DNA of 64,000 nucleotides from Noviherbaspirillum pedocola (lineage in GTDB: Bacteria > Pseudomonadota > Gammaproteobacteria > Burkholderiales > Burkholderiaceae_D), in assembly GCF_016632335.1 (NCBI RefSeq), contig NZ_JAEPBG010000005.1:124001-188000 (forward strand), written 5' to 3'. Each line of letters starts with the position of its first letter. The stretch's first letter is position 1. Position numbers and translations under genes: made by a program. Below are positions 25,638 to 47,376 of this stretch, piece by piece. Below the pieces are notes generated by a model. That model had not been told where the DNA came from, made no database searches, and saw only the letters and a list, made by a program, of their open reading frames with translations.

Positions 25638-25904
25638 ATGTCGATGGACCTTGCTCTCATGCTGACCTCAAGAACGTTGTGGGCAGCGGTGCTCATCTCC
25701 GCGCCGATGCTGCTGACCGCTCTCCTGGTCGGCCTGCTGATCAGCATCTTTCAGGTCGTCACGCAGATTCAGGAAATGTCGCTGAGCTTCGTGCCGAAGC
25801 TTCTCGCCGTGGCTGGCGTGATGGTCATATCCGGCCCCTGGCTGCTGCGGCACCTCGTCGCCTTCGCAAGCTCACTGATTCTCTCCATACCTTCCTACCT
25901 GTGA
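25638..25904 (+). CDS. fliQ: Flagellar export gate protein FliQ
   Basis: The 88-residue protein has the FliQ/SctS length and two membrane helices, with the family core LLTALLVGLLISIFQVVTQIQEMSLSFVPK visible as its central segment (motif quoted in part: GLLISIFQVVTQIQE). It is a component of the FliPQR export gate in the MS-ring pore. The ATG at 25638 has AGGAAG upstream; a much longer open frame to 25401 is ignored. It opens the flagellar run and overlaps fliR by 4 bp through a GTGA junction. Confidence 0.93.
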   Translation: MSMDLALMLTSRTLWAAVLISAPMLLTALLVGLLISIFQVVTQIQEMSLSFVPKLLAVAGVMVISGPWLLRHLVAFASSLILSIPSYL

Positions 25905-26671
25905 TCTCGCTGCGCATAGACATCGCCCCGCTGATCGCTACGCTATTGCTGTCGCTGCGCATCGGTATCGCCTTGTTCATGACACCCGTGCTCGGCGGGA
26001 TCGGCGTGCCGACGATGATAAGAGTCTTTGCACTGCTCGGCCTCGCCTTCTGCATCAACCTCGGATTGCAGCCGCCGCTGCCTCCCCTTGCATCAGACCC
26101 TTCGCATCTGGCGTTTGCCATGTGCATGGAGGCGCTGTGGGGCGCGCTGCTCGGCTTTGGCATATCGACGGCCTTTGCCACGTTCCTGGTCGGCGGCAGA
26201 CTGCTCGACCTGCAGATGGGCTTTGGCGTGGCTACGCTTTTCGATCCCGCCTCGCGCGCGCAGACGCCGCTGCTCGGCCTGCTGCTGCAGATGTGCGCCA
26301 TCGCCGCCTTTCTGGCAGTCGACGGGCATCACCTGCTGCTGCGTGCGCTGGCGGCATCGCTGCAGGCCGTGCCTCTGGGCACAGTGCCACTTCGCCTGCA
26401 GCCGCAAACCGTGCTGGCGCAGTTCGGATTGATGTTCAGCCTCGGCATTGTCGTCGTTGGTCCTGCGGTATTTTGCGTATTCCTGGCCGATATCGGCATG
26501 AGCGTGCTGTCACGCGTATTGCCGCAGGCGAATATCTTCCTGCTGTCGATACCGGTTAAGGTGTTTGCCGGCCTGGCGACGCTGGCGATTTCCCTACCCT
26601 TTCTCGCACCCGCGATGAATCGCGTTTTCGCGAGCATGCTGCGCTACTGGAACGCGCTGATGGGGATCTGA
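25901..26671 (+). CDS. fliR: Flagellar export gate protein FliR
   Basis: The 256-residue polytopic protein has about six hydrophobic segments and FliR/SctT motifs (RIGIALFMTPVLGG near the start, FLVGGRLLDLQMGFGVATLFDP in the middle, and the C-terminal SIPVKVFAGLATLAISLPF). It starts at a GTG that overlaps the fliQ stop (GTGA). FliR caps the FliP5Q4R1 gate. In this cluster fliP is not next to fliQR but 19 kb away at the 3' end of the same run. Confidence 0.93.
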   Translation: MISLRIDIAPLIATLLLSLRIGIALFMTPVLGGIGVPTMIRVFALLGLAFCINLGLQPPLPPLASDPSHLAFAMCMEALWGALLGFGISTAFATFLVGGRLLDLQMGFGVATLFDPASRAQTPLLGLLLQMCAIAAFLAVDGHHLLLRALAASLQAVPLGTVPLRLQPQTVLAQFGLMFSLGIVVVGPAVFCVFLADIGMSVLSRVLPQANIFLLSIPVKVFAGLATLAISLPFLAPAMNRVFASMLRYWNALMGI

Positions 26672-26672
26672 C

Positions 26673-27764
26673 ATGGCCGAGGAAGATCAACAGCGCAGTG
26701 AAAAGGCCACGCCCTGGAAGCTCGATCAGGCGCGCAAGAAAGGCAGCGTGCCGAAGGGCATGGATCTGAACGCCTTCGCAGCGTTGAGCGTGTTGACCGT
26801 TTTCCTCTATTTCAAGGGACCGCGTCTGCTCGAGACGGGCTCGCGCCTGTTTGCCGCCGCGCTCGAAGTCGCAGCCGGAACTGGTCTCACGCGTGCAGCA
26901 GGCGCTTATGCCGTCACCTTGTTTTTCCAGGGCTTGCGCCCCTGGGCGGCAATGTTCGTCGCACTGATTGTCATCGGCATCCTCGCTTCGCTGGCGCAGA
27001 CCGGGCCGGTATTGAGCTTTCATCCGATCAAGCCAGACTTCACGCGTCTCAACCCGGCCCAGGGCATGAAGCGCTTCTTCAATGTGAAACTGCTGTTCGA
27101 CAGCCTGCGCGCGGTGCTGAAGGCGGCGCTTCTTTCGACGGTCATCTTTGTTTTTTTGCGTCACGCATTGCCGGATCTGTTGCGCCTGTCGCTCAGCGAT
27201 GTGCGCAGCTACCCGCTGCAGGCCTTACACCTGTTGCTGCGTCTGCTGTTCTATTGTCTGCTGGCTCTGTTGCCCATCGTGCTTCTCGATATCGCCCTGT
27301 CGCGCCGTGACTTCATGAAACGCATGATGATGAGCCATCGCGAAATTCTGGATGAGCACAAACAGCGCGAAGGCGACCCCCGCATCCGCCAGCGTCAGCG
27401 CGCGCTGCAGCGCGAAGCGCGGCAGCGCAGCTCCTCCCTACGCAGGGTGAAGGATGCAGACGTGCTGATCACGAACCCGACCCGCTTGGCCATCGCCCTC
27501 AAATACGATGCGCCGGGCATGCCTGCGCCGCAGGTGCTGGCCAAAGGCGCCGGTCAGCTCGCGGCGCTCATGCGCGAGATGGCGTGGCGCCATCAGGTTC
27601 CGATCGTGCAGAACCGCAAGCTGGCGGCCGCGCTGTTTCGCGGCGCGTCTATCGAGCAGCACATACCAGTGGATTGCTACGCCGATGTCGCGCGCATCCT
27701 GATCTGGCTGAGGCTGCGGCGGAAACGATCGGAATCCCCTCGGACTACAGGAGCGCAAGCATGA
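26673..27764 (+). CDS. flhB: Flagellar export switch protein FlhB, with NPTR at the cleavage site
   Basis: The 363-residue protein begins with the typical AEEDQQRSEKATPWKLDQARKKG segment, has four membrane helices and a cytoplasmic FlhB-C domain (ALKYDAPGMPAPQVLAKGAG, MAWRHQVPIVQNRKLAAALF). FlhB self-cleaves between Asn and Pro of NPTH to switch export specificity; here residues 268-271 read NPTR. Asn and Pro are kept, so cleavage may occur with changed kinetics. It starts 1 base after fliR and overlaps flhA by 4 bp. A separate FlhB-C-like gene lies downstream at 31019. Confidence 0.93.
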   Translation: MAEEDQQRSEKATPWKLDQARKKGSVPKGMDLNAFAALSVLTVFLYFKGPRLLETGSRLFAAALEVAAGTGLTRAAGAYAVTLFFQGLRPWAAMFVALIVIGILASLAQTGPVLSFHPIKPDFTRLNPAQGMKRFFNVKLLFDSLRAVLKAALLSTVIFVFLRHALPDLLRLSLSDVRSYPLQALHLLLRLLFYCLLALLPIVLLDIALSRRDFMKRMMMSHREILDEHKQREGDPRIRQRQRALQREARQRSSSLRRVKDADVLITNPTRLAIALKYDAPGMPAPQVLAKGAGQLAALMREMAWRHQVPIVQNRKLAAALFRGASIEQHIPVDCYADVARILIWLRLRRKRSESPRTTGAQA

Positions 27765-29809
27765 TGTCATCTCTACGCCAGACGCTGGGCCGTCAGGCGG
27801 ATCTGGTGCTGGTTTTTCTGACGATCGGCATTCTGATCGTGCTGTTTACGCCGATACCTTCGCGTTTGCTCGACTTCCTCATACTCACGAATTTCTCACT
27901 GGCGCTCTTGCTATTGCTGCTGACCTTCTACACCGAGTCGCCGGTGCAGTTTTCCACGTTTCCATCGCTGCTTCTGATCGCCACACTGTTCCGGCTGTCG
28001 CTGAATGTCGCGGCGACGCGCCTCATCCTCTCCAGCGCCGACGCTGGACGCGTGATCAACACCGTCGGCAGCTATGTGGTCGGCGGCAATTACGTCATTG
28101 GCCTGATCGTGTTCCTGATCCTGGTCGTGGTCCAGTACGTCGTCATCACGAACGGCGCGCAACGGGTAGCCGAAGTCGCCGCCCGCTTCACCCTCGACAG
28201 CATGCCGGGCCAGCAGATGAGTATCGACGCTGACCTGAACATGGGCTTTATCGACCAGGCTGAAGCACAGCGCCGTCGCAAGAACATCGAGAAGGAAGCA
28301 AACTTCTACGGCGCGATGGACGGCGCCAGCAAATTCGTCAAGGGCGACGCGATCGCTGGCATCGTCATATTGATCATCAACATCCTTGGCGGCCTGGCCA
28401 TCGGCGTCATGCAGGCGGGCATGAAATGGGATGAAGCGCTGCGCACCTACACCCTGCTGACCATAGGCGACGGCATTGTCACCCAGGTGCCGGCGCTGGT
28501 GATTGCGCTTGGCACCGGCATCATCGTGACCCGCTCAAGCTCCGACGACAACCTGAGCGCCGAAGTCTATCGTCAACTGTCGCTGTTTCCGCGCACCCTG
28601 GGCATCATCATGCTGGCGCTCCTGATCCTGATGTTCCTGCCCGGCCTGCCGGCGCTGCCGCTGCTCGGTCTGATGCTGCTGTTCGGCGTTGCCTGGCGTG
28701 TCGCCCGCGCGAAGAAGCCCAGCGAAGCTGCCGACGCCGCCTCTGGCACCGACGCGGGAAGCGCTCCTGCAAGCGAAGATTTGTACGAGATGCTGCCGGT
28801 GGATCCGATCGAGGTGCGCATCGGCCAGGAGCTGGTGCCGCTGCTTGGCGACGGCAATGCTGCGCTGATGGAGCGCATCGCCGCATTCCGCAAAGCCTAT
28901 GCGCTCGAAGCCGGCTTTGTGCTCCCCGCCGTGCGCATACGCGATGAAAGACGCTTGCCGCCAGCGATGTACGACATACAGATTTATGGGAACAGGGTGG
29001 CCGAAGGCGAGCTGGTGCCGGGCCGGCTGCTCGGCCTGCGTCCCGGCGGAGAGGGGCATGCGCTGCGCGGCATCGAGACGCGTGATCCCAGTTATGGCTT
29101 GCCTGCCGTATGGCTGCTCGAGGAACAGCGTACCGAAGCGCGCCAGGCGGGGTATACCCTGGTCGATCCGGTGACGGTATTCCTGACGCACCTCTCCGAA
29201 GTGCTGCGCAAGGGCGCAGCGCTGCTGCTGTCACGGGCCGAAGTCGAGCGCCTGCTCGGCAATATCCGCAAGACCAATACCAGTCTGGTCGAAGAATTGA
29301 TCCCGGCGACGCTGTCGCTGTCCGAAGTCCAGAAGGTGCTGCAGAATCTGCTGCAGGAAAAGGTATCGATACGCAATCTGGCGCTGATTCTCGAAGTCCT
29401 GGCTGACGGCGCGCGCGGCAGTCGCGATCCAGCGCAACTGACCGAGCTGGTGCGGCAGCGTCTCGGCGGCGCCATTTGCCAGAGCCTGCTTGGCAAGGGC
29501 AGCGAACTGCAGGTGCTCACGCTCGACCCGACGATAGAGCAGACCGTCGCAGCCAGCCTGCGTGGCGAAAGCGACGGCGCCCGTCTGGTGCTCGAGCCGA
29601 AGTATGCCGAGCAGATGATGCATCGCCTCGCCGGTCAGGTCGAGCGCATGGTGAAAAGCAATCTGTTGCCGGTGCTGTTGTGCGCGCCGGAGTTGCGTCG
29701 TCATCTACGTGCAATGACCGAGCGCGTGCTGCCGCAACTGTCGATCGTCTCCATGTCGGAAGTACCGCCCCATATCGCACTGCGCGCCTTCGGCATGGTG
29801 ACCTTATGA
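27761..29809 (+). CDS. flhA: Flagellar export protein FlhA
   Basis: The 682-residue protein has eight N-terminal membrane helices with the FHIPEP-region motif (FPSLLLIATLFRLSLNVAATRLIL), the charged loop DADLNMGFIDQAEAQRRR and a large cytoplasmic domain (about 330-682) that forms the nonameric ring docking export substrates and chaperones. ATG 27761 has GGAG upstream and overlaps the flhB stop. Length and motifs are normal for the family. It overlaps the following fliK-like gene by 4 bp. Confidence 0.95.
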   Translation: MMSSLRQTLGRQADLVLVFLTIGILIVLFTPIPSRLLDFLILTNFSLALLLLLLTFYTESPVQFSTFPSLLLIATLFRLSLNVAATRLILSSADAGRVINTVGSYVVGGNYVIGLIVFLILVVVQYVVITNGAQRVAEVAARFTLDSMPGQQMSIDADLNMGFIDQAEAQRRRKNIEKEANFYGAMDGASKFVKGDAIAGIVILIINILGGLAIGVMQAGMKWDEALRTYTLLTIGDGIVTQVPALVIALGTGIIVTRSSSDDNLSAEVYRQLSLFPRTLGIIMLALLILMFLPGLPALPLLGLMLLFGVAWRVARAKKPSEAADAASGTDAGSAPASEDLYEMLPVDPIEVRIGQELVPLLGDGNAALMERIAAFRKAYALEAGFVLPAVRIRDERRLPPAMYDIQIYGNRVAEGELVPGRLLGLRPGGEGHALRGIETRDPSYGLPAVWLLEEQRTEARQAGYTLVDPVTVFLTHLSEVLRKGAALLLSRAEVERLLGNIRKTNTSLVEELIPATLSLSEVQKVLQNLLQEKVSIRNLALILEVLADGARGSRDPAQLTELVRQRLGGAICQSLLGKGSELQVLTLDPTIEQTVAASLRGESDGARLVLEPKYAEQMMHRLAGQVERMVKSNLLPVLLCAPELRRHLRAMTERVLPQLSIVSMSEVPPHIALRAFGMVTL

Positions 29810-31017
29810 GCGTCGACCCCTCCAGCCTTGCCGCAGCGCTGCAGTTGCCAAGTTCCTTGCTTGGTACCGCGCCGCTGCTGCGTTTCCAGGCGGACGGCCG
29901 CACGCAGCGATCGCTCGATCTCGGCGAGGTGCTTGCGGCGCGCGTCACCCAGGCATTTCAGGGCGGCCGCTACCTGATCGACATCGGCGGTCAGGAGCGC
30001 ATCGTTGACAGCACCGTGCCGCTGCGCGTCGGCGACATGCTGCGCGCGCGCGTACTCAGGGTCGGTGAACAGGTGGTGTTGGAAAAACTGGCGGATGTTG
30101 TGGCGGGCAGGCGTGAATCCGCGCACGACCCGGCGCAGGCAACGCCGCCGCCATGGCTCGAACGTACCGACAATGACGCCGCGCTGATGCTGTTCCAACA
30201 GCATGCCGCGCTGCTTGGCGACATGGAATGGCAAAACCTCGGCGCACAAACTGCCGGTCTTGATCCGTACAACGCGGTACTGTCTGCGCTGACGCTCAAG
30301 CGTGCCGGCTTCGCGCTGAATGCAGCGCTGCTGCAGAGCCTGGGGCACGCACTTTCCGGCGCCAGCCTTGTCGCCAGCGGCCAGCAGCTGCTCAACGCAA
30401 GCCTTGTTGCCGGCGCGGCCGGTATGACCCAGGCGGCGGTACGGGAGAATGCGCAAACGCTCACGGACGCGATAGACACGCAACTGCATGCAATGTCTCA
30501 GGCCCAATTCGGCGCAACAGGAGCCGAAGCCGATTCGTCGGGCGACGGCATGGATGAAGGAGAAAGGGAGCGCTGGGCCTGGATCGCTCAACGCCTGCTG
30601 AATGCGCAGCAGCCAGGATCGCTGGCGCACCGAACCATGAGTCTGCCGCTGGCCATTAATGGTCGACTTGTCGAATTCCAGGTGGCGCTATTCGATGTTT
30701 CCGCCGACGCGGAATTGCGTCCGGAGTTGCGACAGCGCAGCCTGCGCATCGCGCTTGATCTCGATCAGGTAGGACGCATAGAAATTCTCGCGCGCGTGGT
30801 GGACCGCCGTGTTGTGCTCAATGTTCTCGCCGCCAGCGATAGCACGGCCGCGGCGATCGGTGATCAGGATAGTGCGCTCGCACGTGCCCTTGCCAACCTG
30901 GGCTGGACAGTGGATGCGGTCAGCTATGAGGTCCGGCCGTCGGCATCCGGCAATGCGCTGATACGTACCGTGATGGAACGGCTGGTCGCCGGCGACAACT
31001 TCAATCTGCTGGCCTGA
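29806..31017 (+). CDS. FliK-like hook-length control protein (first of two)
   Basis: The 403-residue protein has a C-terminal FliK/Flg_hook-like domain (about 275-395): SLPLAINGRLVEFQVALFD, LRIALDLDQVGRIEILARVV and a final ALANLGWTVDAVSYEV segment. The N-terminal part has the compact MSVDPSS...LGEVLAARVTQAFQGGRYLIDIGG region seen in FlhB-adjacent FliK homologues. It is coupled to flhA (ATGA) and followed at once by the small FlhB-C-like gene, a pairing seen in other bacteria. A second, SctP-like candidate lies after fliJ. Division of labour between them is unknown. Confidence 0.72.
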   Translation: MSVDPSSLAAALQLPSSLLGTAPLLRFQADGRTQRSLDLGEVLAARVTQAFQGGRYLIDIGGQERIVDSTVPLRVGDMLRARVLRVGEQVVLEKLADVVAGRRESAHDPAQATPPPWLERTDNDAALMLFQQHAALLGDMEWQNLGAQTAGLDPYNAVLSALTLKRAGFALNAALLQSLGHALSGASLVASGQQLLNASLVAGAAGMTQAAVRENAQTLTDAIDTQLHAMSQAQFGATGAEADSSGDGMDEGERERWAWIAQRLLNAQQPGSLAHRTMSLPLAINGRLVEFQVALFDVSADAELRPELRQRSLRIALDLDQVGRIEILARVVDRRVVLNVLAASDSTAAAIGDQDSALARALANLGWTVDAVSYEVRPSASGNALIRTVMERLVAGDNFNLLA

Positions 31018-31018: not shown

Positions 31019-31309
31019 ATGAATACTTCACCGCTGCCCCGCGTCGTTGGTCTGGCCTACGACGCCGATAGCGCCGAGGCTTTGCCCAGCATCGTGCTCA
31101 AGGCCGCCGGCCCGATTACCGAGGAGCTGCTTGCGCAGACCTTGCGCCGTGATGGGCCACGCATCGTGCGGGATGCAACGCTGCTCGAACAGCTGTATCG
31201 GCTGCCGGTCGATGCTGCCATTGATCCATCGTTGTTCGAGCTGGTGGCTGCGTTGCTGGCGCATGTGATTGCAGTGAATGAACGCATCGGGAATGAAAGT
31301 CGATCATAA
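31019..31309 (+). CDS. FlhB C-terminal domain homologue (FlhX-like)
   Basis: The 96-residue protein matches only the post-cleavage cytoplasmic domain of FlhB: VVGLAYDADSAEALPSIVLK aligns with the ALKYDAP...VLAKGAG region, and LYRLPVDAAIDPSLFELVAA with the ALF...IPVDCYADVA region. It lacks membrane helices and the NPTH loop. FlhX-type proteins can substitute for or modulate the FlhB C-terminal fragment. The ATG is 1 base after the fliK-like stop. Given the NPTR in the full-length FlhB, this fragment may be functionally important. Confidence 0.78.
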   Translation: MNTSPLPRVVGLAYDADSAEALPSIVLKAAGPITEELLAQTLRRDGPRIVRDATLLEQLYRLPVDAAIDPSLFELVAALLAHVIAVNERIGNESRS

Positions 31310-31530
31310 GGAAACGACTGTTGGCGATCAGCTCAACGGTCGCGCGGATCGCAGGTGGAAAGCCAGCGCCAAAGCCGGCTAACAATGAACAACTGAATTA
31401 ACAAACGTGACGAAATGTTGCTGTAGCGTTTTAAATGCCACCTCGCTGTGCCGTGTTGAGATTCATCAGAGAGCCCGGCGCTAAAGCGCAAACGAACGAC
31501 ACGATTGCCACCTGTCCCATGGAGATGCGA
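31310..31530 (+). promoter_or_regulatory. Only sizeable gap inside the flagellar run, with a weak sigma-28-like site
   Basis: This 221-base gap separates the export/fliK block from the rod genes. It contains TAAA at 482-485 and CGAT at 502-505 (numbers within 31 kb), which resemble the -35 and -10 cores of a FliA promoter with spacing one base shorter than in E. coli. An internal promoter here would let flgF onward be expressed separately. The match is weak. Confidence 0.25.
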
Positions 31531-32277
31531 ATGCCTGATGGTGCTGCCATCGCCGCCGCAAGTATGTCTCTCGATTCCGAGCGCATCAGAATCATTAGCC
31601 AGAATCTCGCCAACATGGCGACCCCGGGTTACAAGCGCGCGTTACCGGTTTCCACCATCCCCCAGCACTTTGCCGAAGCCTTGAATCTCCTCGATCCGGC
31701 GATCGGCGCACCGGCAAGTGTGTCGCGCCTGCCCATAGTCGAGCACCAGATCGACTTTCACGATGCGCCAACTCGGCATACCGGAAATTCGCTGGACCTG
31801 GCCATCGAAGGCGCAGGCTTCTTCGAACTCAGCGATGCATCCGGGACCTATTACACGCGCCAGGGCAATTTCAGTATCGATGCGACTGGCTTGCTGACTG
31901 GCCCCAATGGAGAAACCGTCAGCGGCGTCGGCGGCGACATCCGCCTCGAGTCCGGCGCGGTGCGCATCGACAGGCAGGGCCGCATAGTCGACGGCAGGGA
32001 CAACCAGCTTGGGCAAATCAAGCTTGTGGGTTTCGACGACGCATCAAGGCTGCAAGCGGTCGGCAATGGCCGCTACAGGCGGGGAAGCGCGCAAATCTCA
32101 TCCGAGCCTGTCGGCGCAGCACTGCGCCAGGGAATGCTCGAAGCTTCAAACGTGAACAGCGCCTATGAGATGACGAAGCTGCTCGACTCGCTGCGCCACT
32201 TCCAGAATGGCGCTCAGGTGCTTCGCGCCTACGACCAAATGGGAGAGAAGGCGCTGACCAGGCTTGGTGAATTCTGA
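31531..32277 (+). CDS. flgF: Flagellar proximal rod protein FlgF
   Basis: The 248-residue protein has the rod/hook N-terminal motif SQNLANMATPGYKR and the C-terminal Flg_bbr motif MLEASNVNSAYEMTKLLDSL. Between them lies the FlgF/FlgG-like middle domain (GNSLDLAIEGAGFFEL, YYTRQGNFSIDATG). FlgF is an exported periplasmic rod subunit. Of several in-frame starts I choose 31531, which has GGAG six bases upstream. flgG follows after 67 bp. It could be confused with FlgG, but the neighbour is a better FlgG. Confidence 0.88.
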   Translation: MPDGAAIAAASMSLDSERIRIISQNLANMATPGYKRALPVSTIPQHFAEALNLLDPAIGAPASVSRLPIVEHQIDFHDAPTRHTGNSLDLAIEGAGFFELSDASGTYYTRQGNFSIDATGLLTGPNGETVSGVGGDIRLESGAVRIDRQGRIVDGRDNQLGQIKLVGFDDASRLQAVGNGRYRRGSAQISSEPVGAALRQGMLEASNVNSAYEMTKLLDSLRHFQNGAQVLRAYDQMGEKALTRLGEF

Positions 32278-34107: not shown

Positions 34108-34220
34108 GAACCCTTGCCAAGAGATCCATGCACCAGCACATCAACCAGCCCCACTCCGCTCCGGCAGCATACGACGGCCATCGCGCTGCGTTGCGGATGC
34201 CGCCAGGCAGAAGGTCGTTC

Positions 34221-37107: not shown

Positions 37108-37133
37108 ATGTCGCCGCACCGAAGAGGAACACC

Positions 37134-38669: not shown

Positions 38670-39166
38670 ATCCGGCCGACAAGCGCATGCGCGAGGCGGC
38701 GCTTTCCCTCCATGCCTTGCACTGGCGCGATCGCGAATGGTTGCTGCGTCGCCTGTTACCAGGCATGCGCACCGCAATTCGTTCCTTACTCAAGGAATTG
38801 CGGGCCCTGGGTATCGCGCCCGAGGTCGGCTTAGGCGACGTCCCCTGCCCTGACGTGCCAGATACGCTCGAAGGCGCTACGGTACACACCGAGGATGCCG
38901 CGATCATCGACGCCGCTTCACCCGCCGATATCCTCAGGCTATTCACGAGTGATGCGCAGGGACGTCTGACGGCGGTCCTGATGCAGGCCCGAGCCTGGCG
39001 CTGGCGCCAGGCAGTCTGGGATGCATTGACGCCGCTGCAGAAGAAACACCTCACCGAAGCCATTGCGCAGCCTGCGCATGATCTGCCGCAAGCATGGCGG
39101 GGGGCTCTGCTGCATGCGTACGCAGCGCATCTGCGTGCACCACATACCGTAAGGCCGACTCCATGA
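38666..39166 (+). CDS. Unknown 166-residue protein in the fliG (sctK) position
   Basis: The gene overlaps both fliF and fliH by 4 bp and occupies the place where fliG sits in flagellar operons, and sctK in injectisome operons. The protein is half the length of FliG (about 330) and I see no FliG motor domain or its EXXR-type charged helix. It is helical, with a basic N-terminal segment (REWLLRRLLPGMRTAIRSLL) and a Trp-rich C-terminal half (WRWRQAVWDALTPLQKKHL). It could be a heavily reduced FliG-like adaptor linking FliF to the SpoA proteins, or a SctK analogue. Identity is unresolved. Confidence 0.65.
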   Translation: MNPADKRMREAALSLHALHWRDREWLLRRLLPGMRTAIRSLLKELRALGIAPEVGLGDVPCPDVPDTLEGATVHTEDAAIIDAASPADILRLFTSDAQGRLTAVLMQARAWRWRQAVWDALTPLQKKHLTEAIAQPAHDLPQAWRGALLHAYAAHLRAPHTVRPTP

Positions 39167-40044: not shown

Positions 40045-41360
40045 ACATGCAGCGCTATGCGCAAGCGGTATCCGGCTGCGAACTGGTGCGTCGCATCGGG
40101 CGTGTGACGCGCTTTTACGGCCTGGTGCTGGAAGCTTCCGGTCCGGATGCGTTTCTTGGCGAAGTCTGCGAAGTGCATTCGCGCTCGCATGCGGCGCCGG
40201 TGTTGGCCGAGGTGGTCGGCCTGCGTGATGGCACGGTGCTGCTGATGCCTTATGGCGAGCTGCGCGGCATCGGCCTCGGTAGCGAAGTCATTGCGCGCGG
40301 ACAAAGCTTGCGCGTGCCGGCCGGCGAGGCACTGCTAGGACGCGTCATCGACGCCTTTTGCAAGCCGCTCGATGGCCGACCCGCGCCGCGTACGAGCGCC
40401 ATGATCAATCTGCACCGCGATGCCATCAATCCGCTCAATCGGCCGCCGATACGCCAGGTACTGGAATCCGGCGTGCGCGCCATCGATACGCTGCTCACCA
40501 TCGGCAAGGGTCAGCGCATCGGGATCTTCTCCGGAAGCGGCGTAGGCAAGAGCACGCTGCTGGGCATGCTGGCCCGCAATGTGCGCTCGGATGTGAATGT
40601 CATTGCATTGGTCGGCGAGCGCGGACGCGAGGTGCGCGAATTTATCGAGCAATCGCTCGGGCCGGCCGGGCTGAAACGCTCGGTGCTGGTGGTGTCGACA
40701 TCGGAGCAAGCGGCGCTAATGCGTTGCAATGCCGCTTTTGCCGCAACCGCGCTGGCCGAACACTTCCGCGCGCAGGGCGCCGACGTGGCCCTGATCATGG
40801 ACTCGGTATCACGCTTTGCGATGGCCCAGCGTGAAATCGGCCTGGCCATCGGTGAGCCGCCGACCGCGCGCGGCTACACGCCTTCGGTGTTCGCCAGCCT
40901 GCCGCGCTTGCTCGAGCGTTGCGGCACTACCGATGCGGGCTCGATTACCGCGTTTTATACGGTACTGGCCGAGGGTGACGATTTCACTGGCGATCCGATC
41001 GTCGATGCAGCGCGCTCGGTGCTGGATGGCCACATCGTGCTCTCGCGTGAACTTGCAGATCAACGCCATTTCCCGGCAATCGACATTCTGAAGAGCATCA
41101 GCCGACTGATGCCTCTCCTGAGCACGCCCGGGGAGCAGGAACTGGCGCAGCGAGCAATCCGCACGCTGAATCAACTGACCAGAAGCCGCGACCTCATTGA
41201 GATAGGCGCTTACAAGAGCGGCGCCAACGCCGAGCTCGACCGCGCATTGCAACTTGCTCCACGGCTGGAGCGCTTCCTGTGTCAAGGCATGACGGAATCG
41301 GTAGCGCGCAGCGATGCACTGCGCGAACTGTCGACCATTTTCGCGGAATCCAAATCATGA
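40041..41360 (+). CDS. fliI: Flagellum-specific ATPase FliI
   Basis: The 439-residue protein is a clear FliI/SctN ATPase: Walker A GSGVGKST (Lys170), GERGREVREFIE, Walker B region VALIMDSVSRFAMAQREIGLA and the C-terminal helical domain. It energises unfolding and delivery of export substrates with FliH and FliJ. ATG 40041 overlaps the fliH stop, and the end overlaps fliJ by 4 bp. Length and motifs are normal. Confidence 0.95.
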   Translation: MNMQRYAQAVSGCELVRRIGRVTRFYGLVLEASGPDAFLGEVCEVHSRSHAAPVLAEVVGLRDGTVLLMPYGELRGIGLGSEVIARGQSLRVPAGEALLGRVIDAFCKPLDGRPAPRTSAMINLHRDAINPLNRPPIRQVLESGVRAIDTLLTIGKGQRIGIFSGSGVGKSTLLGMLARNVRSDVNVIALVGERGREVREFIEQSLGPAGLKRSVLVVSTSEQAALMRCNAAFAATALAEHFRAQGADVALIMDSVSRFAMAQREIGLAIGEPPTARGYTPSVFASLPRLLERCGTTDAGSITAFYTVLAEGDDFTGDPIVDAARSVLDGHIVLSRELADQRHFPAIDILKSISRLMPLLSTPGEQELAQRAIRTLNQLTRSRDLIEIGAYKSGANAELDRALQLAPRLERFLCQGMTESVARSDALRELSTIFAESKS

Positions 41361-41827
41361 GCTTCCATTACCGCTATCCACTGCAGAGTCTCAAGACCTT
41401 GCGCAGCCGAGAGCTGGAAACGGCGCAGGCTGCGCTGCAGCTGGCCCTTGCCGAAGTCGATGTCACGCAACGACAGCTCGCAAGCGCAGAGGAGACGATG
41501 CGCGAGGTCGAGGCGCTTCTCCGCGAGTTGCAGCGCGACGGCATCCTGGACCTCGACCGGCATCGCCGAACGCGCGATTTCCTGTACCGAACCGGGGCAC
41601 AGGCGCAAACGCTGCGTGAAGAACTGAATGCGCTGATTGACAAGCGTATCGGCTGCAGCGAAGCCGTCCAGTGCAGCAAGACCGCCTTGCGCAGCCTGGA
41701 AAAACACGAGACGAGATTGAGTGCGCGCGCGTTCATCGAATACACCCGCTGCGACCAACGCGCATCGGATGATGGCTGGTTGACGGTCGCCATGCGCAGA
41801 AAGCGTGAAACGGAAGGCCGGGCATGA
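41357..41827 (+). CDS. fliJ: Flagellar export protein FliJ
   Basis: The 156-residue protein starts FHYRYPLQSLKTLRSRELETAQ and is almost entirely a two-helix coiled coil, as FliJ/SctO stalk proteins are. Its place between fliI and a fliK-like gene is canonical, with 4-bp overlaps on both sides. FliJ sits in the FliI hexamer pore and contacts FlhA. Sequence conservation in this family is low, so the call rests on context, size and coiled-coil pattern. Confidence 0.8.
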   Translation: MSFHYRYPLQSLKTLRSRELETAQAALQLALAEVDVTQRQLASAEETMREVEALLRELQRDGILDLDRHRRTRDFLYRTGAQAQTLREELNALIDKRIGCSEAVQCSKTALRSLEKHETRLSARAFIEYTRCDQRASDDGWLTVAMRRKRETEGRA

Positions 41828-42474
41828 AGACCCTTGCCTATGCGCCGCAGCCTGTCGTCGCCACCGTCGCGCCCGGACCCACCACTGTCGCTGGCGACGC
41901 CTTTCGGCGCCTGCTCGATCGTGAGCAAATGGCCGCACTCAATCGCTTTCGTGCAGTGCCGGTCGATACACGCATGGCGTCAGCGAAGGCCAGCAATGCG
42001 GAAAGTGACAAGCGCGCCAACTATCCAGCGGATGCGGCGCCGGAAGCGGGGAAATCAGTCGCTTATGCGACAAGCGATATCACGAGCATGCAACGCAACC
42101 GATCCCGGTACAGCCCGAGCATGCCGCCTGCCGCTGCCTTGTCGTTGCGATCGACGACTACGCTTCCCAATGGCGCGGCAACGCCAGCCACGCCGCAGCT
42201 TGACGCGGCACGCACCGCGCCGGCCACCAACGCTGCTATTGAGATTGCTGAAACCGTGTTGCGCCCAAATGTCGTCGATACCGGCTTTCCCTGGCCATTG
42301 CGCAAACTGCATTGCCAACTCGAGGAAGACGGTGTCCACGTCTGGCTGCGCGATCTCACGCAACAACCCGACGACACCGCGCTCGAAGCCAGCATCGTGA
42401 CACTACGGCGGACGCTGGAAAGCGCCGGCTACCGGCTCGCCGGCTTCACGCTGAATGGCGTCAGGCTGATATGA
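41824..42474 (+). CDS. FliK/SctP-like length-control protein (second of two)
   Basis: The 216-residue protein has a disordered, Ala/Thr/Pro-rich first 130 residues and a compact C-terminal domain: WPLRKLHCQLEEDGVHVWLRD, then LRRTLESAGYRLAGFTLNGVRL at the very end. This ending resembles injectisome SctP (HpaP/YscP) and the last part of FliK. Position after fliJ also fits sctO-sctP or fliJ-fliK. A larger FliK-like gene is already present after flhA, so the system encodes two candidates for measuring length or switching substrates. Confidence 0.65.
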   Translation: MKTLAYAPQPVVATVAPGPTTVAGDAFRRLLDREQMAALNRFRAVPVDTRMASAKASNAESDKRANYPADAAPEAGKSVAYATSDITSMQRNRSRYSPSMPPAAALSLRSTTTLPNGAATPATPQLDAARTAPATNAAIEIAETVLRPNVVDTGFPWPLRKLHCQLEEDGVHVWLRDLTQQPDDTALEASIVTLRRTLESAGYRLAGFTLNGVRLI

Positions 42475-42546
42475 GCCGCGCTGAGCCGCGTCGAGTTGAT
42501 CCAACCAAGGGATTCACCGAAACATGCAAGCACGCACGGAGGCAAT

Positions 42547-42966
42547 ATGGCAGTCGAAGCAATAGGAGGTTTGTCGGTTTCCAAGAACCAGCCGACCCAG
42601 GTCAACAGTCTTGGTCTGGATGACTTTCTGAAAATTCTGCTCACCCAGCTGACCTATCAGGATCCGCTCAAGCCGCTGGACAACCAGGAGTTCATTGCCC
42701 AGCTGGCGCAGTTCACATCACTGCAACAAACCACCGAGTTGAACCGCAACACGCAGCAGGGAGTGAGCATTCTCGCCGCGAACCAGGCGGTGAGCCTGAT
42801 AGGCAGGACCGTGCAGGTGCAGAGTCAGAACAACGACGGTAGCAGCCTCATCGGTCAGGTCACCACACTGCGTTTCAACAACGGCCAGCCGCTGGTGACG
42901 GTGCGTGGCAGCGATGGCTCCTATGCCACCGACCTGCCGCTCTCGCAAATCGTGCTGGTTCAATAA
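42547..42966 (+). CDS. flgD: Flagellar hook assembly cap FlgD (short)
   Basis: The 139-residue protein has the FlgD N-terminal signature (LDDFLKILLTQLTYQDPLKPLDNQEFIAQ as the central part; motif LLTQLTYQDPLKP) and FTSLQQTTELN. It ends soon after the first beta segment (NNGQPLVTVRGSDGSYATDL), lacking the FlgD Tudor/Fn3-like C-terminal domain of the 220-residue proteins; short FlgDs are known. GGAGG precedes the ATG at 42547. flgE follows after 12 bp. Confidence 0.88.
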   Translation: MAVEAIGGLSVSKNQPTQVNSLGLDDFLKILLTQLTYQDPLKPLDNQEFIAQLAQFTSLQQTTELNRNTQQGVSILAANQAVSLIGRTVQVQSQNNDGSSLIGQVTTLRFNNGQPLVTVRGSDGSYATDLPLSQIVLVQ

Positions 42967-42978: not shown

Positions 42979-44184
42979 ATGCTTGATGCAATCTTCATCG
43001 CCAATACCGGTCTGCAGGCTTACAGCAAGGGGCTGACGAACATCAGCTCCAATGTCAGCAATCTGAACACGGCCGGCTACAAGCGCTCGGCCCTGCAATT
43101 CCAGGACCTGCTCTATAACGAAGGCGCGCTTGCCGGCCGAACCGGCAATGGCGTACAGGCTGGCAAGCCGACTACGATCCGTGCTCAGGGCGAACTGCGG
43201 CAGAGCGGCAATCCGACCGACGCCGCCATCGATGGCGCCGGCTATTTCATGCTGCGCAGCGACGGCAAGACCCTGTATACGCGCGATGGCCAATTCGAAT
43301 TCGATGCCAAGGGCAAGCTGGTCGCGAAACAGTCGAAAACGCCGGTCATGGTGCTCGATGCGACTGGCACACTCGGCGAGCTCGACATCAGTTCCCTGCG
43401 CGCCATCGCGGGCACGCCGACGGCGACGATCAAGCTGGATGGCATTCTCTCCACCGGCGACAGCGACAAAAGTCACTCGGTCACCGATGTCAGCGTGGTG
43501 AGCAACGCCGGTGTCGTGTCGACGCTATCGATCGTATTCACCGACCAGACCGCGCCTTCGACCAGCGGTGCCGACCATACCTGGGGCTTCGAGATCCGGG
43601 ATGCCAAGAGCGCCACGGTTGCGAAAGGCACGCTGGCATTCGGCGTCGATGGCTCTCCGGAAGCGGGCTATGACAAGTTCCGCTTCACCTGGAATCCGAC
43701 CGGAGCCAGCCCGCAGGACATCATGCTCGATTTCGGCGACCCAGGCTCGTTCGCTGGTCTCACCAGCTTCAGCGCCGGCGCCACGTCGACTGCGAAACTG
43801 CAATCGGCGGACGGCAAAGCCAGCGGCACGTTCACCGCGAGCAGCTACGACACCGACGGCTCGGTGATGCTGGCCTACAGCAATGGCGAGAAGCGCAATG
43901 TCGGCCGCCTGGCGCTGTCCTGGTTCCAGGATGAATCCGGTCTCGTGGCACAGGGCGGCGGATTGTGGCGCGCGCCGGCAGATGCCGCCGCCGTCGCTGG
44001 CGCCGCGCAAAGCGCTGTCTTCGGCAAGATCGCCGGCGGCGAAATCGAAGCCTCGAATGTGGACCTGACCCAGCAATTTTCCGAATTGATCGTGGTGCAG
44101 CGCGCCTACCAGGCCTGCTCGCAGGTGCAGAGCACCGCCAACGAAATGGCGCAGCAATTGATGGACACGCGGAGGCGAGGTTGA
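42979..44184 (+). CDS. flgE: Flagellar hook protein FlgE
   Basis: The 401-residue protein has the hook/rod N-terminus (IFIANTGLQAYSKGLTNISS, NLNTAGYKRSALQFQDL), a long variable D1/D2 region (about 95-330) and the C-terminal motif GGEIEASNVDLTQQFSELIVVQRAYQACSQ. Length is normal for a hook protein. Its presence shows that the structure is expected to extend beyond the outer membrane. Neither hook-filament junction genes nor filament genes follow. It overlaps the SpoA gene through TTGA. Confidence 0.9.
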   Translation: MLDAIFIANTGLQAYSKGLTNISSNVSNLNTAGYKRSALQFQDLLYNEGALAGRTGNGVQAGKPTTIRAQGELRQSGNPTDAAIDGAGYFMLRSDGKTLYTRDGQFEFDAKGKLVAKQSKTPVMVLDATGTLGELDISSLRAIAGTPTATIKLDGILSTGDSDKSHSVTDVSVVSNAGVVSTLSIVFTDQTAPSTSGADHTWGFEIRDAKSATVAKGTLAFGVDGSPEAGYDKFRFTWNPTGASPQDIMLDFGDPGSFAGLTSFSAGATSTAKLQSADGKASGTFTASSYDTDGSVMLAYSNGEKRNVGRLALSWFQDESGLVAQGGGLWRAPADAAAVAGAAQSAVFGKIAGGEIEASNVDLTQQFSELIVVQRAYQACSQVQSTANEMAQQLMDTRRRG

Positions 44185-44969
44185 GAGCGCTGCCATGGAA
44201 GCTGTATGCATCCCACGAGCTGGATGCGATCGCAGCCAGCCTTGCGCCGCGGGTCCAGGCGTGGGGGGCGGCATGGCTGCCCGGGGTAGACATCCGACTC
44301 GCCGTCGACGACAGCCTTGTGCGGGAAAGCCCTCCGGTGCCGCCATCGCTGCTTGCAATGCTTGATGAAGAGAGTGAATCCGCAACCCTCGCGTTTCACG
44401 CCAGAGCCATACCCGCGCCCGTGCTGAACGCCGCTGCGTCGGCACTCGGCGCGCCAACCAGCGCATCGGCTGCGCTGCATGCCGAATTACGCAACACCAT
44501 GGCCAGCCTGGCCTTGCGTGATCTGCTTGCACGGCTGATGGGCCTGCCGCCCGGGTCCGAGCGCAAGCCGGCATTGTTCCGCGAAACTGCCCTTGCTGGG
44601 CCAGTCCGGGCGCGCGGCGCTGCTTCACTATGGCTGACGCTGTGGCTGGGACAGGAACCGTGGCTGATCTGGATGGCGCAACCGCCGAACGCGAAGAGTG
44701 TCACCGAGCGCAGCGAGGTGCGACCCGAGCCGCTGGCGCCCCGTCTTGAAGCGCTGCAGTCACGTCGGATCCGGCTGCGCGTGGTGGCTGGTGAAGCCAG
44801 CCTGCCGCTGTCCGAACTGATGCGCCTTGGCCATGGCGATGTCGTGCTGCTCGATCATCGTATCGATGCCGCGATGCGCTTGGAAAACGCTGCTGGGACC
44901 GCGCTAGCAGGTGGCTATCTCGGCCTGAGCGGAGACAAGCCGGTGCTGCAGCTCGACGCCGCTTCCTGA
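44181..44969 (+). CDS. Short FliM-like/SctQ-like SpoA protein
   Basis: About 262 residues, starting at a TTG with GGAGGCGAGG upstream that overlaps the flgE stop. The C-terminal 75 residues form a SpoA domain (RRIRLRVVAGEASLPLSELMRLGHGDVVLLD). The protein is shorter than FliM (about 330) and has neither the N-terminal CheY-binding helix (LSQxEIDALL) nor an evident GGxG middle-domain signature. In size and layout it resembles SctQ of injectisomes. It is followed by fliN, so together they could form a C-ring or sorting platform. Confidence is high for SpoA and lower for FliM function. Confidence 0.7.
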   Translation: MRALPWKLYASHELDAIAASLAPRVQAWGAAWLPGVDIRLAVDDSLVRESPPVPPSLLAMLDEESESATLAFHARAIPAPVLNAAASALGAPTSASAALHAELRNTMASLALRDLLARLMGLPPGSERKPALFRETALAGPVRARGAASLWLTLWLGQEPWLIWMAQPPNAKSVTERSEVRPEPLAPRLEALQSRRIRLRVVAGEASLPLSELMRLGHGDVVLLDHRIDAAMRLENAAGTALAGGYLGLSGDKPVLQLDAAS

Positions 44970-44995
44970 ATTTTCAACATTGGAATTGGAAAACC

Positions 44996-45364
44996 ATGAC
45001 TCCTATCGCTTCCCATCCTGCCCAGGACGCCGATATTCCCGCATCGGGGCAAACCGCCCATGCCGCGCCCATCGAATTGCAACCGGTAACGGAATTGCCC
45101 ACGAGCGATGGAGCCCTGCTGGCCAAGCGCCTCGACCTGATTGGCGACCTGAAAGTCAGGTTGCGCGCCATCGTTGGCGAGGGCGAGGTCTCGGTCGCGG
45201 AATTGTTCAGGCTCAAGGACGGCTCGATCGTGCCTCTCGAAGCCGATACATCGCCAGTCATCGAACTGCAACTTGACGAGCGCGTTGTCGCGCGTGGTGA
45301 GCTTGTTGTGGTCGAGGACAAGTTGGGCGTACGCATTACGGAAGTCGGCAGTGTGGGAGCCTGA
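44996..45364 (+). CDS. fliN: Flagellar C-ring protein FliN
   Basis: The 122-residue protein has a variable N-terminus and a C-terminal SpoA domain (LIGDLKVRLRAIVGEGEVSVAEL, LKDGSIVPLEADTSPVIEL, VVVEDKLGVRITEVG), the size and layout of FliN. FliN dimers with FliM form the lower C-ring. It is spaced 26 bp after the FliM-like gene and 1 bp before fliO. Confidence 0.86.
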   Translation: MTPIASHPAQDADIPASGQTAHAAPIELQPVTELPTSDGALLAKRLDLIGDLKVRLRAIVGEGEVSVAELFRLKDGSIVPLEADTSPVIELQLDERVVARGELVVVEDKLGVRITEVGSVGA

Positions 45365-45365
45365 A

Positions 45366-45797
45366 ATGCCGGGACAATCCGTTGCGCGCGTTTGCCGGCA
45401 GCGCTGGCCAGCGCGTGTTGGTGGCGCACTGGTGGCGAACACAACGATGCTGACCAAGGTACTGGCAGCCGACGAGGCGGCGGCCATTCCGTTTCGCGCT
45501 CCGGATACAGGCCTGGGACAGCAGGCCGGGCTTGCGATTGGCGTCACCCTGTTGCTGCTGGCGCTGGCCTCGGCGGCACTTCTTGTGCTCAGACGGCGCT
45601 TCGCGTTGACAAATTCGTCTGGCGATGGCGCGGCGCTGCGCAGCATTGCCAGTCTGCGCCTGCCGCCCCAGACGCGCATACATGTGATCGCCTATCGCGA
45701 CCGGGAATGGTTGCTGATTCAGGCAGGTGCCAACCTGCAATGCCTGCCCGCCACTGCGCCCCCGATGGAACACCCGCCGTCATGGGATGCCGAATGA
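45366..45797 (+). CDS. fliO: FliO-like single-pass export accessory protein
   Basis: The 143-residue protein has one membrane helix (LAIGVTLLLLALASAALLVL, about residues 55-75) followed by a small cytoplasmic domain (RSIASLRLPPQTRIHVIAYRDREWLLIQAG), as FliO proteins have. FliO helps assemble FliP rings. The call depends on this topology and on the position between fliN and fliP; primary sequence conservation is low. Its end overlaps fliP by 4 bp. Confidence 0.75.
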   Translation: MPGQSVARVCRQRWPARVGGALVANTTMLTKVLAADEAAAIPFRAPDTGLGQQAGLAIGVTLLLLALASAALLVLRRRFALTNSSGDGAALRSIASLRLPPQTRIHVIAYRDREWLLIQAGANLQCLPATAPPMEHPPSWDAE

Positions 45798-46615
45798 GCG
45801 CAACAACTCGCCAAAGCCGGAACCGCGCGAAGACGCCGCACTTGCGATGGTTTGCCGTCACGTTAGCGCTGCTCATCGGCTCTTGCTGCGCCATGCCCGT
45901 CATGGCAGCGACAGCGAAGACGACGGCAATCGCGGCGCCCGCGGCCAGCGTGCTGGAACTGCGCATACCCGCATCGCCCACCGGAGGCGATCTGGCGCTG
46001 CCGATCCGCATGCTGTTGCTGCTGACCCTGCTCAGCCTGGCGCCGGCGATCCTCATCACGATGACAGCCTTCACCCGTATCGTCGTGGTGCTATCCATGC
46101 TCAGGCATGCAATCGGCATGCAGGAGACGCCGCCGAACCAGGTGCTGGTGAGCCTGGCGCTGTTCCTGTCCATCTTTGCGATGATGCCGGTGCTTGCCCA
46201 CATCAATGACAAGGCTTTGCAGCCCTATACCAAGGGTCAGCTACGGCTGGAGCAGGCGGTGGATATCGCATCTGGCGAGATGCGCGAATTCATGGTGCGG
46301 CAGACGCGTGAGGCCGATCTGGCGCTGATGGTCGAACTCGCGCATGCGCAGCCACCGCAGCGCATCGAGGACATCAGCCTGGCGCAGCTGGTGCCCGCCT
46401 TCATGCTCGGCGAGCTGCGCAGCGCGTTCCAGATCGGCTTCATGATTTTCCTGCCCTTCGTGATGATTGACCTGGTGGTCTCGAGCGTGCTGATGTCGCT
46501 CGGCATGATGATGGTGCCACCGGTGATGATCTCGCTGCCGCTGAAGCTGTTGACCTTCGTGCTGATCGACGGCTGGAATCTGGTCGCACGCTCGCTGTTG
46601 GGAAGTTTCCATTAA
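45794..46615 (+). CDS. fliP: Flagellar export gate protein FliP
   Basis: The 273-residue protein has a cleavable signal peptide (LALLIGSCCAMPVMAATA), then FliP motifs: ILITMTAFTRIVVVLSMLRHA, ETPPNQVLVSLALFLS, FMVRQTREADLALM, FMIFLPFVMIDLVVSSVLMSLGMMM. It is the main subunit of the FliPQR gate. ATG 45794 overlaps the fliO stop. Its partners fliQ and fliR are at the opposite end of this run. Confidence 0.94.
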   Translation: MSATTRQSRNRAKTPHLRWFAVTLALLIGSCCAMPVMAATAKTTAIAAPAASVLELRIPASPTGGDLALPIRMLLLLTLLSLAPAILITMTAFTRIVVVLSMLRHAIGMQETPPNQVLVSLALFLSIFAMMPVLAHINDKALQPYTKGQLRLEQAVDIASGEMREFMVRQTREADLALMVELAHAQPPQRIEDISLAQLVPAFMLGELRSAFQIGFMIFLPFVMIDLVVSSVLMSLGMMMVPPVMISLPLKLLTFVLIDGWNLVARSLLGSFH

Positions 46616-46623
46616 ATGCCGCA

Positions 46624-47376
46624 ATGGATGCGACGCCCGCTGCCGACGAGGAGCGTGAACTCTGGTTGCGCTTCGTCGCCAGCCGCGACCAGGCTTTGCG
46701 TCTGCAGATTATCGACGCGCACCTGCCCTTTGCGCGCATGCATGCCGCCCAGATGTATTCCCGGCGTGGCGGACTACCGGCGGAGTTTGCCGATTATCTG
46801 CAAACGGCGGTACTTGGCCTGATGGAAGCCGTCGACCGCTTCGACCCCGGACGCGGCATTCCATTCCGGCACTACGCGGTCAGACGCATACGAGGCGCTG
46901 TGCTGGATGCGCTGCCATCGCTGAGCGAATTTCATACCCGGGTTCTGACGCCGGGTGGACCGCAAGACCGCTCGGCAAGCTTCGCCGATCGCGTCGAGAG
47001 TTTGATCGAGCGCGACGATGACAAGGAAAACCCGCTGTTATCGCTGGAGGAGTTGGCGGACTTCACCGTGGAACTCAGCATCGGCTTCATGCTGGACGAC
47101 GAGGAAGAAACCAAGGTATCGGCCGACGAAGTCGATCTGAGTGCCTATGAGGATGCAGAGCGCCGGGAACTCGCCAATCTCTTCGCCTGGATGGTGCCCA
47201 AGCTTGCGCCCGAGTTGGCGCGCATCGTGCGCTATCACTATTTCTTCGGCATCGACTTTCGAACCATTGCGCAAATGCTCAGCGTTACCCCGGCCAGGGT
47301 GTCGCAACTCCACAGCAAGGCGCTGAAAGCATTGCGCAAGCTTTATCAGGACGGCCGGTTTGGCATGTCCGCATGA
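46624..47376 (+). CDS. fliA: FliA-like (sigma-28 family) sigma factor
   Basis: The 250-residue protein has sigma region 2 (AEFADYLQTAVLGLMEAVDRFDP, FRHYAVRRIRGAVLDAL), a long acidic linker (about 115-175, containing ERDDDKEN and DDEEETK) and region 4 (ARIVRYHYFFGIDFRTIAQM, TPARVSQLHSKALKALR). It is the last gene of the flagellar run, 8 bp after fliP, and presumably directs late genes of this system, possibly encoded elsewhere. The Shine-Dalgarno is weak. Whether it is the cell's only FliA or a dedicated second one cannot be told here. Confidence 0.85.
   Translation: MDATPAADEERELWLRFVASRDQALRLQIIDAHLPFARMHAAQMYSRRGGLPAEFADYLQTAVLGLMEAVDRFDPGRGIPFRHYAVRRIRGAVLDALPSLSEFHTRVLTPGGPQDRSASFADRVESLIERDDDKENPLLSLEELADFTVELSIGFMLDDEEETKVSADEVDLSAYEDAERRELANLFAWMVPKLAPELARIVRYHYFFGIDFRTIAQMLSVTPARVSQLHSKALKALRKLYQDGRFGMSA

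Follow-up and report, generated by a model that had tools for sequence, protein, structure and literature searches.

A conserved flagellum-derived gene cluster with a truncated FliG in Noviherbaspirillum pedocola, probably encoding a non-rotating export machine

The window analysed here, a 64,000-nucleotide stretch of the draft genome of Noviherbaspirillum pedocola (C45:124001-188000; genome of 7.24 Mb in 80 contigs), contains a cluster of flagellum-type genes at positions 25638-47376, all on the + strand. We consider, with a probability of about 0.7, that this cluster encodes a dedicated, non-rotating, flagellum-derived export machine, which bears a hook but no filament. It encodes the export gate (FliOPQR and FlhAB), the ATPase complex (FliH, FliI and a probable FliJ), the MS ring, rod, P and L rings, hook and hook cap. 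The genes as encoded would suffice for a gate, a tube across both membranes and a hook with its cap, but include no torque domain and no known filament protein. An earlier note on this DNA had read the cluster as either a split secondary flagellum or a non-motile secretion apparatus; the parts that it listed, from the gate to the cap and a sigma factor, were confirmed by Pfam and NCBIfam matches and by the reading frames.

A predicted FliG derivative without the torque domain

The gene at 38666-39166, called geneX here, lies between fliF and fliH, which is the place of fliG. No fliG had been recognised in the run by the earlier note. That claim had to be abandoned: although the 166-amino-acid (aa) geneX product of the window has no Pfam match by itself, the profile of its family matches the N-terminal and middle domains of FliG, and we conclude from these comparisons that it is a FliG derivative which has kept both domains and lost the C-terminal torque domain. 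The geneX family (34 sequences of 166-256 aa, 34 alignment rows) aligned with FliG (13 rows) at an hhalign P of 9.8e-6, collinear with FliG residues 4-182. In a set of 92 comparisons, composed of 30 protein families of the same loci (geneX being one of them), 60 column-shuffled FliG alignments, reversed FliG and FliG, the geneX profile scored 44.4 bits against FliG and the best of the 90 controls scored 20.4. When the FliG domains were compared with geneX, P was 2.1e-6 for the N-terminal and middle domains together, 3.2e-5 for the middle domain alone and 2.1e-4 for the middle and C-terminal domains, of which the middle part alone was aligned. The middle domain was the source of most of the signal, and no match to the C-terminal (torque) domain was obtained (P 0.025). 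A class-wide search of 369 genomes with a profile of 26 members (A2) gave 14 hits, namely the window, 3 further strong hits and 10 weak ones. The weak hits lay in open reading frames (ORFs) of 333-366 aa, and all six that were fetched were true FliG, matched over the N-terminal and middle part. The gene is under purifying selection, with a ratio of non-synonymous to synonymous substitution rates (dN/dS) of 0.04-0.46 in 6/6 pairs.

Several results weigh against this assignment. The N-terminal domain of FliG alone gave no signal with geneX (P 0.022), so that the N-terminal part of the assignment rests on collinearity. When 26 family members were compared with Pfam at E values of up to 1, matches were found to FliG_N (4), FliG_M (2), FliG_C (2) and MgtE_N (6), with best E values of 0.0026-0.021 (0.0056 for FliG_C), and the lowest E value overall, 1.5e-4 in one member, belonged to an unrelated family. 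A profile search of PDB placed FliG at ranks 1 and 2 of 3, at E values of 0.35 and 0.38. The AlphaFold model of geneX (4 rows) was all-helical, with a predicted local distance difference test score (pLDDT) of 76.8, and a Foldseek search with it returned 33 hits, none at E 0.001 or better; 3 were named FliG and 4 were FliG-size C-ring chains, the best being 3hjl at rank 2 (E 1.6, probability 0.38). Such weak single-sequence and structure matches would suit an unrelated adaptor in the fliG place, for instance one like SctK of injectisomes. We regard an adaptor of this kind as improbable, as the profile match to the N-terminal and middle domains stands clear of all 90 controls, true FliG proteins were the next proteins in the class-wide search (6/6 checked of the 10), and geneX had no match better than E 0.07 in the two 20-kb regions read at the injectisome genes of this genome.

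The remaining parts of the ring and a possible export switch

The SpoA family of the cluster (17 relatives) matched an alignment of 40 FliM proteins over FliM residues 107-322 (hhalign P 5.7e-12), and no match was found by hhalign to the first ~105 residues of FliM, the location of the CheY-binding motif. The short C-terminal tail of FliF carries a conserved LSxxERxxxLxxxRxWL-like motif, the W of which was seen by eye in 34 of the 36 listed tails (it is absent in G027 and G766). The motif occupies the position that in ordinary FliF belongs to the FliG-binding helix, and the tail is a possible docking site for geneX. FliF, the N-terminal and middle domains of FliG, the FliM core and FliN thus appear to form a platform without a torque domain and without the N-terminal input of FliM. 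The description of the cluster as lacking a rotor was too strong: the torque domain is indeed gone, but the cluster still encodes FliN and shortened derivatives of FliG and FliM.

A FliK-like gene paired with flhX, which encodes a paralogue of the C-terminal domain of FlhB, was found in 3/32 loci (the window, G102 and G415) and in G1040 among 3 class-level loci; the FlhX match in G997 is FlhB itself. The 216-aa gene of the cluster was considered as a second FliK, and hhalign gave no support for this (4 rows only).

Gene content of the cluster

The genes of the cluster are as follows (coordinates in the window, strand, assignment and its basis).

25638..25904, +: fliQ, 88 aa; reading frame, 77% / 70% identity to fliQ of L018 / L020
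25904..26671 (start inferred; ORF from 25064), +: fliR; Pfam Bac_export_1 8.8e-51
26673..27764, +: flhB, with NPTR in place of NPTH; Pfam 1.9e-98, motif tally
27761..29809 (ORF from 27584; start inferred), +: flhA; Pfam FHIPEP 1.9e-244, own clade in the tree
29806..31017, +: fliK-like, hook-length protein; Pfam Flg_hook 4.5e-7, at its cut-off
31019..31309, +: flhX, paralogue of the FlhB C-terminal domain; NCBIfam flhB_rel 4.6e-7, below cut-off
31435..32277, +: flgF; rod/hook Pfam domains, name from position
32345..33121, +: flgG, distal rod; rod/hook Pfam domains, best match main FlgG (38%)
33133..34107, +: flgA; ChapFlgA 1.3e-9
34104..34811, +: flgH, L ring; Pfam 2.5e-44
34808..35941, +: flgI, P ring; Pfam 7.3e-124
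36006..36365, +: flgB; Flg_bb_rod 4.4e-6, name from position
36368..36805, +: flgC; Flg_bbr_C 1.6e-7, name from position
36802..37107, +: fliE; Pfam 6.7e-19
37077..38669, +: fliF, MS ring; Pfam YscJ_FliF 2.3e-57
38666..39166, +: geneX, predicted FliG derivative (N-terminal and middle domains), 166 aa, in the fliF-fliH interval; hhalign family comparison
39094..40044 (ORF), +: fliH; Pfam 1.8e-13
39681..41360 (ORF; true start further in), +: fliI, ATPase; ATP-synt_ab 2.1e-85, T3SS_ATPase_C 2.4e-19
41279..41827, +: probable fliJ; NCBIfam FliJ 0.0028, far below cut-off, position after fliI
41824..42474, +: 216-aa protein of no known family; 4-row model matches 28/32 loci
42496..42966, +: flgD, hook cap; Pfam 2.7e-19
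42979..44184, +: flgE, hook; rod/hook Pfam domains
43965..44969 (ORF; probable start close to the end of flgE, 44184), +: FliM-like C-ring protein (SpoA gene); FliMN_C 9.9e-8, hhalign
44996..45364, +: fliN; Pfam FliMN_C 1.2e-16
45447..45797, +: fliO; Pfam FliO 5.4e-4, 20.4 bits (cut-off 22), position before fliP
45794..46615, +: fliP, export gate; Pfam FliP 7.3e-77
46624..47376, +: FliA/WhiG-like sigma factor; Sigma70_r2 6.9e-13, NCBIfam FliA_WhiG 2.4e-24, below cut-off

A profile search with one-sequence models found no flgJ, flgL, fliC, fliD, fliS, motA or motB in the cluster, in agreement with the earlier note, and the one-sequence FlgK model matched only FlgE and FlgG ORFs of relatives. 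Pfam matched none of the scanned cluster proteins to a secretin or needle family, the other loci not having been searched for them.

The same cluster in several families and orders

Within one class, 57 genomes gave a geneX hit. A profile of 4 rows (A1) detected it in 43/392 genomes of the family, in 15/44 genera, and an order-level search gave 13 hits in 399 genomes, 11 of them new. We read the loci of the window and of 20/42 other family genomes (up to 40 kb each), 11 order-level loci and 3 class-level loci, all picked by their geneX hit; G718, G766, G463 and G620 were read over 20 kb only, and the geneX hits of the last three were weak (E 1.4e-5 to 3e-4). The same gene set, in the same blocks, was present in 35/35 loci (35 genomes), some read in part, which belong to several families and orders; conservation in relatives, a check that the earlier note had proposed, thus excludes chance.

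With family profiles, flhA, flgF, flgG, flgI, flgB, flgC, fliE, fliF, geneX, fliH, fliI, flgD, flgE, spoA, fliN, fliO and fliP were found in 32/32 loci, the count for fliH being an upper bound as it was scored on an ORF off the usual place in G106, G312, G226 and G718. The other counts among the 32 loci were 31 for flhB and flgA, 30 for flgH, 29 for fliR and the sigma factor, 28 for fliQ and 26 for fliJ. Three of the four loci without fliQ are cut there, and the fourth, G218, is uncut and shows neither fliQ nor fliR. The 3 class-level loci have the core as in the window. Gene order inside the blocks is nearly constant; the fliQ-fliR-flhB-flhA block precedes the rest in most loci and follows it in 6/32. 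Lengths are steady as well, at 464-530 aa for fliF (36 relatives) and 388-419 aa for flgE (33 relatives). In the G312 locus (L161-L162), flgI aligned in two pieces, perhaps owing to a frameshift or an assembly error.

FliG, FlgL, FlgJ, FliC, FliD, MotA, MotB and FliS were found in 0/35 loci at E 1e-3 (13 rows for the FliG model, one sequence for each of the others; the search was made at the loci and, for MotAB, FliD and FlgK in relatives, was not extended to whole genomes). FliL, FlhF and FlhG were likewise found in 0/32 loci with one-sequence models. An apparent FlgK in 13/32 loci and in G1076 and G1040 was rejected, all 15 matches being cross-matches on FlgE or FlgG ORFs.

The nearest named matches of the window FliP were from Noviherbaspirillum suwonense (81%), Lacisediminimonas profundi (79%), a Herminiimonas metagenome-assembled genome (MAG; 72%) and a Rhodocyclales MAG (67%); the other 63/67 matched loci, from many phyla, showed 60% or less.

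FlhA phylogeny and other type III systems of the genome

In a tree of 63 FlhA rows, an analysis that the earlier note had suggested, the 21 window-type proteins formed a clade of their own (Shimodaira-Hasegawa-type approximate likelihood-ratio test, SH-aLRT, 100; stem 0.73), separate from the main (1 row) and lateral (7 rows) flagella. The tree was made by a quick method after 14 closely related loci and 6 duplicate or fragmentary ones had been removed, and it does not settle the deeper placement of the clade.

Profile searches of the whole genome, likewise suggested, revealed 3 FlhA, 2 FliG_C, 4 Flagellin_N, 3 FliF-type and 8 MotA/ExbB-type places. They include a second, main flagellum, which is divided between C80 and the 16.7-kb contig C43. 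By family match it has FliG with FliG_C, FliF, FlhA, a MotA-type protein and an FlgL-type Flagellin_N protein; FliM, FliL, FlgJ, FlgK, MotB, FlhF and FlhG of these contigs were named from BLAST to window proteins, gene order and a look at the sequence. Its FlhA is 42% identical to that of the window. Two fliC-fliD loci are found on C1 and C56, with flagellins that are 51% identical to each other. An orphan intact fliG (C56:171389; L087:5744-6739) is a near copy of the main one (80% identity of the proteins), and no flagellar gene was recognised in the 20 kb around it. Of the MotA/ExbB-type places, one belongs to the main flagellar cluster, and 7 have no assignment. An injectisome-type type III secretion system (T3SS) with SctV-, SctJ- and SctRSTU-like genes is encoded at C1:255825-281000 (L009, L010).

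Test of a split flagellum in the genomes that carry geneX

These findings supply the candidates for a split secondary flagellum, in which FliG, flagellin, junction and stator proteins would come in trans: in this genome the orphan fliG, the two fliC-fliD loci and the 7 unassigned MotA/ExbB-type places, and in 51/57 geneX carriers a FliG encoded elsewhere. We nevertheless find such a split quite improbable. The orphan FliG is close to the main FliG, the window FlhA is far from that of the main flagellum by identity and in the tree, and geneX, which fills the place of the N-terminal and middle domains of FliG, would be expected to compete with a whole FliG.

A strong case against it is provided by the carriers themselves. 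FliG_C is missing in 6/57 of them, namely G034 (98% complete, 380 contigs, FlhA count 0), G039 (98%, 1), G062 (99%, 2), G088 (83%, 2), G768 (89%, 1) and G1040 (97%, 1). In G039, G768 and G1040 the window-type FlhA is the only one, and a split flagellum is therefore excluded in these three genomes, as far as drafts allow; one of the three drafts is that of an isolate, Lacisediminimonas profundi. Flagellin_N was tested in 14 genomes, G034, G039, G062 and G088 of these six among them, and none was found in G034, G039 and G088. As G034 lacks even the window-type FlhA, its assembly is broken at that point. G062 has one weak-type Flagellin_N hit near a contig end, on the same contig as a main-type FlhA, and so probably contains a partly assembled flagellum. 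The split flagellum proposed in the earlier note is thus not supported.

The divergent second FliG of genera g6, g12, g18 and g40 (22 genomes) was considered as a partner and rejected, since 9/9 fetched genes adjoin their own fliF, fliI, fliD and motA; a further stretch, the 6-kb contig G060:C58, carries fliG, fliH, fliI, fliL and fliM. In these genera (L175-L180, L182-L184) there is a divergent second flagellum with its own FliG, and some genomes have three flagellum-type systems.

Conserved neighbours of the cluster

The gene run marked by the earlier note is real. The conserved unit reaches further to the left and takes in tetratricopeptide repeat (TPR) genes and one small gene, all on the - strand at 21873-25225.

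24011..25225, -: TPR protein, 404 aa, conserved neighbour; 27/32 loci
23472..24014, -: TPR protein, 180 aa, acidic; 23/32 loci
23047..23445, -: u132, 132 aa, no known family; 25/32 loci including the window, no Pfam or NCBIfam match
21873..22397, -: TPR protein, 174 aa; 19/32 loci, an upper bound as TPR profiles cross-match

The TPR genes, u132 and the FliA-like sigma factor are the conserved neighbours, and the TPR and u132 genes sit at varying ends of the loci, on either strand. The 404-aa TPR protein matched LcrH_SycD (2.4e-7) and SctY (4.5e-8) of NCBIfam below cut-off, with generic TPR families scoring better, and it is a possibility that the TPR proteins are LcrH/SycD-type chaperones. The idea that u132 is a basic substrate of acidic TPR chaperones was dropped, as the isoelectric points of 25 u132 proteins range from 5.2 to 12.0 and follow no rule. 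Families common to 4-7/21 neighbourhoods have members scattered in place. One family of 13 related ORFs, several of which lie left of the cluster at 2491-12136 of the window, occurs in 7/21 neighbourhoods. Ankyrin-repeat proteins are encoded just after the cluster (47414-48208 of the window) and near motB of the main flagellum (L006:11989-15325).

Discussion

The gene content suggests how a dedicated export machine might work. Truncated FliG would dock on the short conserved tail of FliF and hold the FliM core and FliN in a static platform for sorting. Subunits of the rod and the hook would then be exported and form an envelope-crossing, hook-tipped tube, through which the gate might pass on further candidate proteins. 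The acidic TPR proteins could serve as chaperones and u132 as a regulator or a substrate, and the sigma factor would time expression. Of the non-motile secretion apparatus in the earlier note, the non-motile part fits our results, and export beyond the machine's own rod and hook is something that we infer.

A number of observations speak against a dedicated secretion machine. No substrate is named by the sequence data, and besides u132 no non-flagellar, non-TPR family is common to at least 8/21 neighbourhoods. The self-cleavage motif of FlhB, tallied in 31 loci including the window, is NPTH in 18, NPTR in 8 and NPTW in 1, and was not found in 4. The FliG elsewhere in 51/57 carriers makes it possible that parts are shared with a real flagellum in those cells. 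Another reading is a passive envelope-crossing appendage that exports rod, cap and hook only and uses the hook itself as its product, as an adhesin, spacer or sensory probe, with no effector. FlgE and FlgD are encoded in 32/32 loci, no effector-like gene is widely common around them, and according to PMC9927559 the Lysobacter system releases FlgD, the cap protein. On the other hand, the FliK-like and FlhX proteins of the window, G102, G415 and G1040 suggest that these loci have retained a substrate switch, for which there would be no use if late substrates did not exist, even though the pair is missing in 31/35 loci, and the TPR and u132 genes would still need a role. We judge a passive appendage unlikely, while allowing it a real chance.

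That the cluster is a decaying relic of a flagellum we find scarcely credible. Motility genes are missing and presence is patchy, with 43/392 family genomes and, within the genus itself, G000 (this genome) and G055 positive and G015 and G078 negative. Decay is, however, already contradicted by the constant content of 35/35 loci across several families and orders, by the dN/dS of geneX (0.04-0.46) and by the steady lengths of fliF and flgE.

We incline, with little more than even confidence, to see in the cluster a third independent type III lineage, in which FliG lost its torque domain, FliM lost its N-terminal end and the rod-ring-hook tube was kept for hook-tipped, non-rotary secretion, and which would be maintained over several families and orders beside ordinary flagella and injectisomes. 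The conversion of a flagellum into a secretion device by loss of the motor has so far been argued from injectisomes, which are far changed, from their Myxococcales relatives and from Buchnera. The cluster described here shows a conserved state that retains the export parts and the outer tube but not the FliG torque domain, and the question can be tested in a named isolate. There is a practical side as well, since annotation by the presence of flagellar genes can label a non-flagellated bacterium as flagellated. The titles and abstracts met with in a literature search contained no description of a window-type cluster or of a torque-less FliG; subscription papers lay largely outside this search, and absence from print is not claimed. 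The hat-shaped structure described in PMC9380563 is a different matter.

Comparison with known systems

The closest tested precedent is the flagellar type III system of Lysobacter enzymogenes, which shows that a reduced set can export. This non-flagellated bacterium secretes heterologous flagellin, and secretion is lost in flhB or fliI knock-outs (PMC7277350). FlgD is said to be secreted too (PMC9927559, citing PMC7277350), and a text search found no mention of FlgD in the main text of PMC7277350. Strain OH11 is described as having gate and ATPase genes without fliC, fliD, flgK, flgL, fliG, motA and motB (PMC9927559), and the window cluster resembles it in keeping gate and ATPase genes without filament, junction, whole fliG and stator genes. 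According to the published account, the OH11 genes are not organised as an operon, and BLAST is reported to have shown the loss of flgB, fliE and fliM as well. The cluster described here is in contrast a single compact unit that retains the rod, ring and hook genes together with truncated forms of FliG and FliM, and it mostly occurs beside a whole FliG. No Lysobacter record was among the 67 loci matched by the window FliP.

Basal bodies of Buchnera, as cited in PMC3459982, are likewise a flagellar set cut down to the basal body and proposed to be a secretion system. In that case the reduction took place in an endosymbiont, whereas here it is a separate lineage in several families. Buchnera, moreover, keeps an ordinary FliG.

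The main flagellum of the same genome shares with the window cluster homologous genes for export, MS ring, rod, rings and hook, and has in addition FliG_C, MotA-type and FlgL-type proteins, which the window cluster lacks. Compared with motility flagella in general, window-type loci have the export gate, ATPase, MS ring, rod and hook, but neither the torque domain nor the stator nor the junction, filament-cap and flagellin proteins.

Injectisomes (non-flagellar T3SS) and their early form in Myxococcales are, like the proposed machine, flagellum-derived and non-motile (PMC3459982). The export core is common to injectisomes and the window cluster, but flgB, flgC and fliE, which are treated as flagellum-specific in PMC3459982, are present in 32/32 window-type loci. 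The Myxococcales form is said to be without FlgBCDEK, FliEG, FlgH and MotAB, whereas the window cluster keeps FlgBCDE, FliE, FlgH and the FliG derivative. According to Abby and Rocha (PMC3459982), flagellar T3SSs were exapted several times, and flagella-like loci occur in species that are not thought to be flagellated; the window cluster would be a concrete, conserved case of the exaptation that they proposed.

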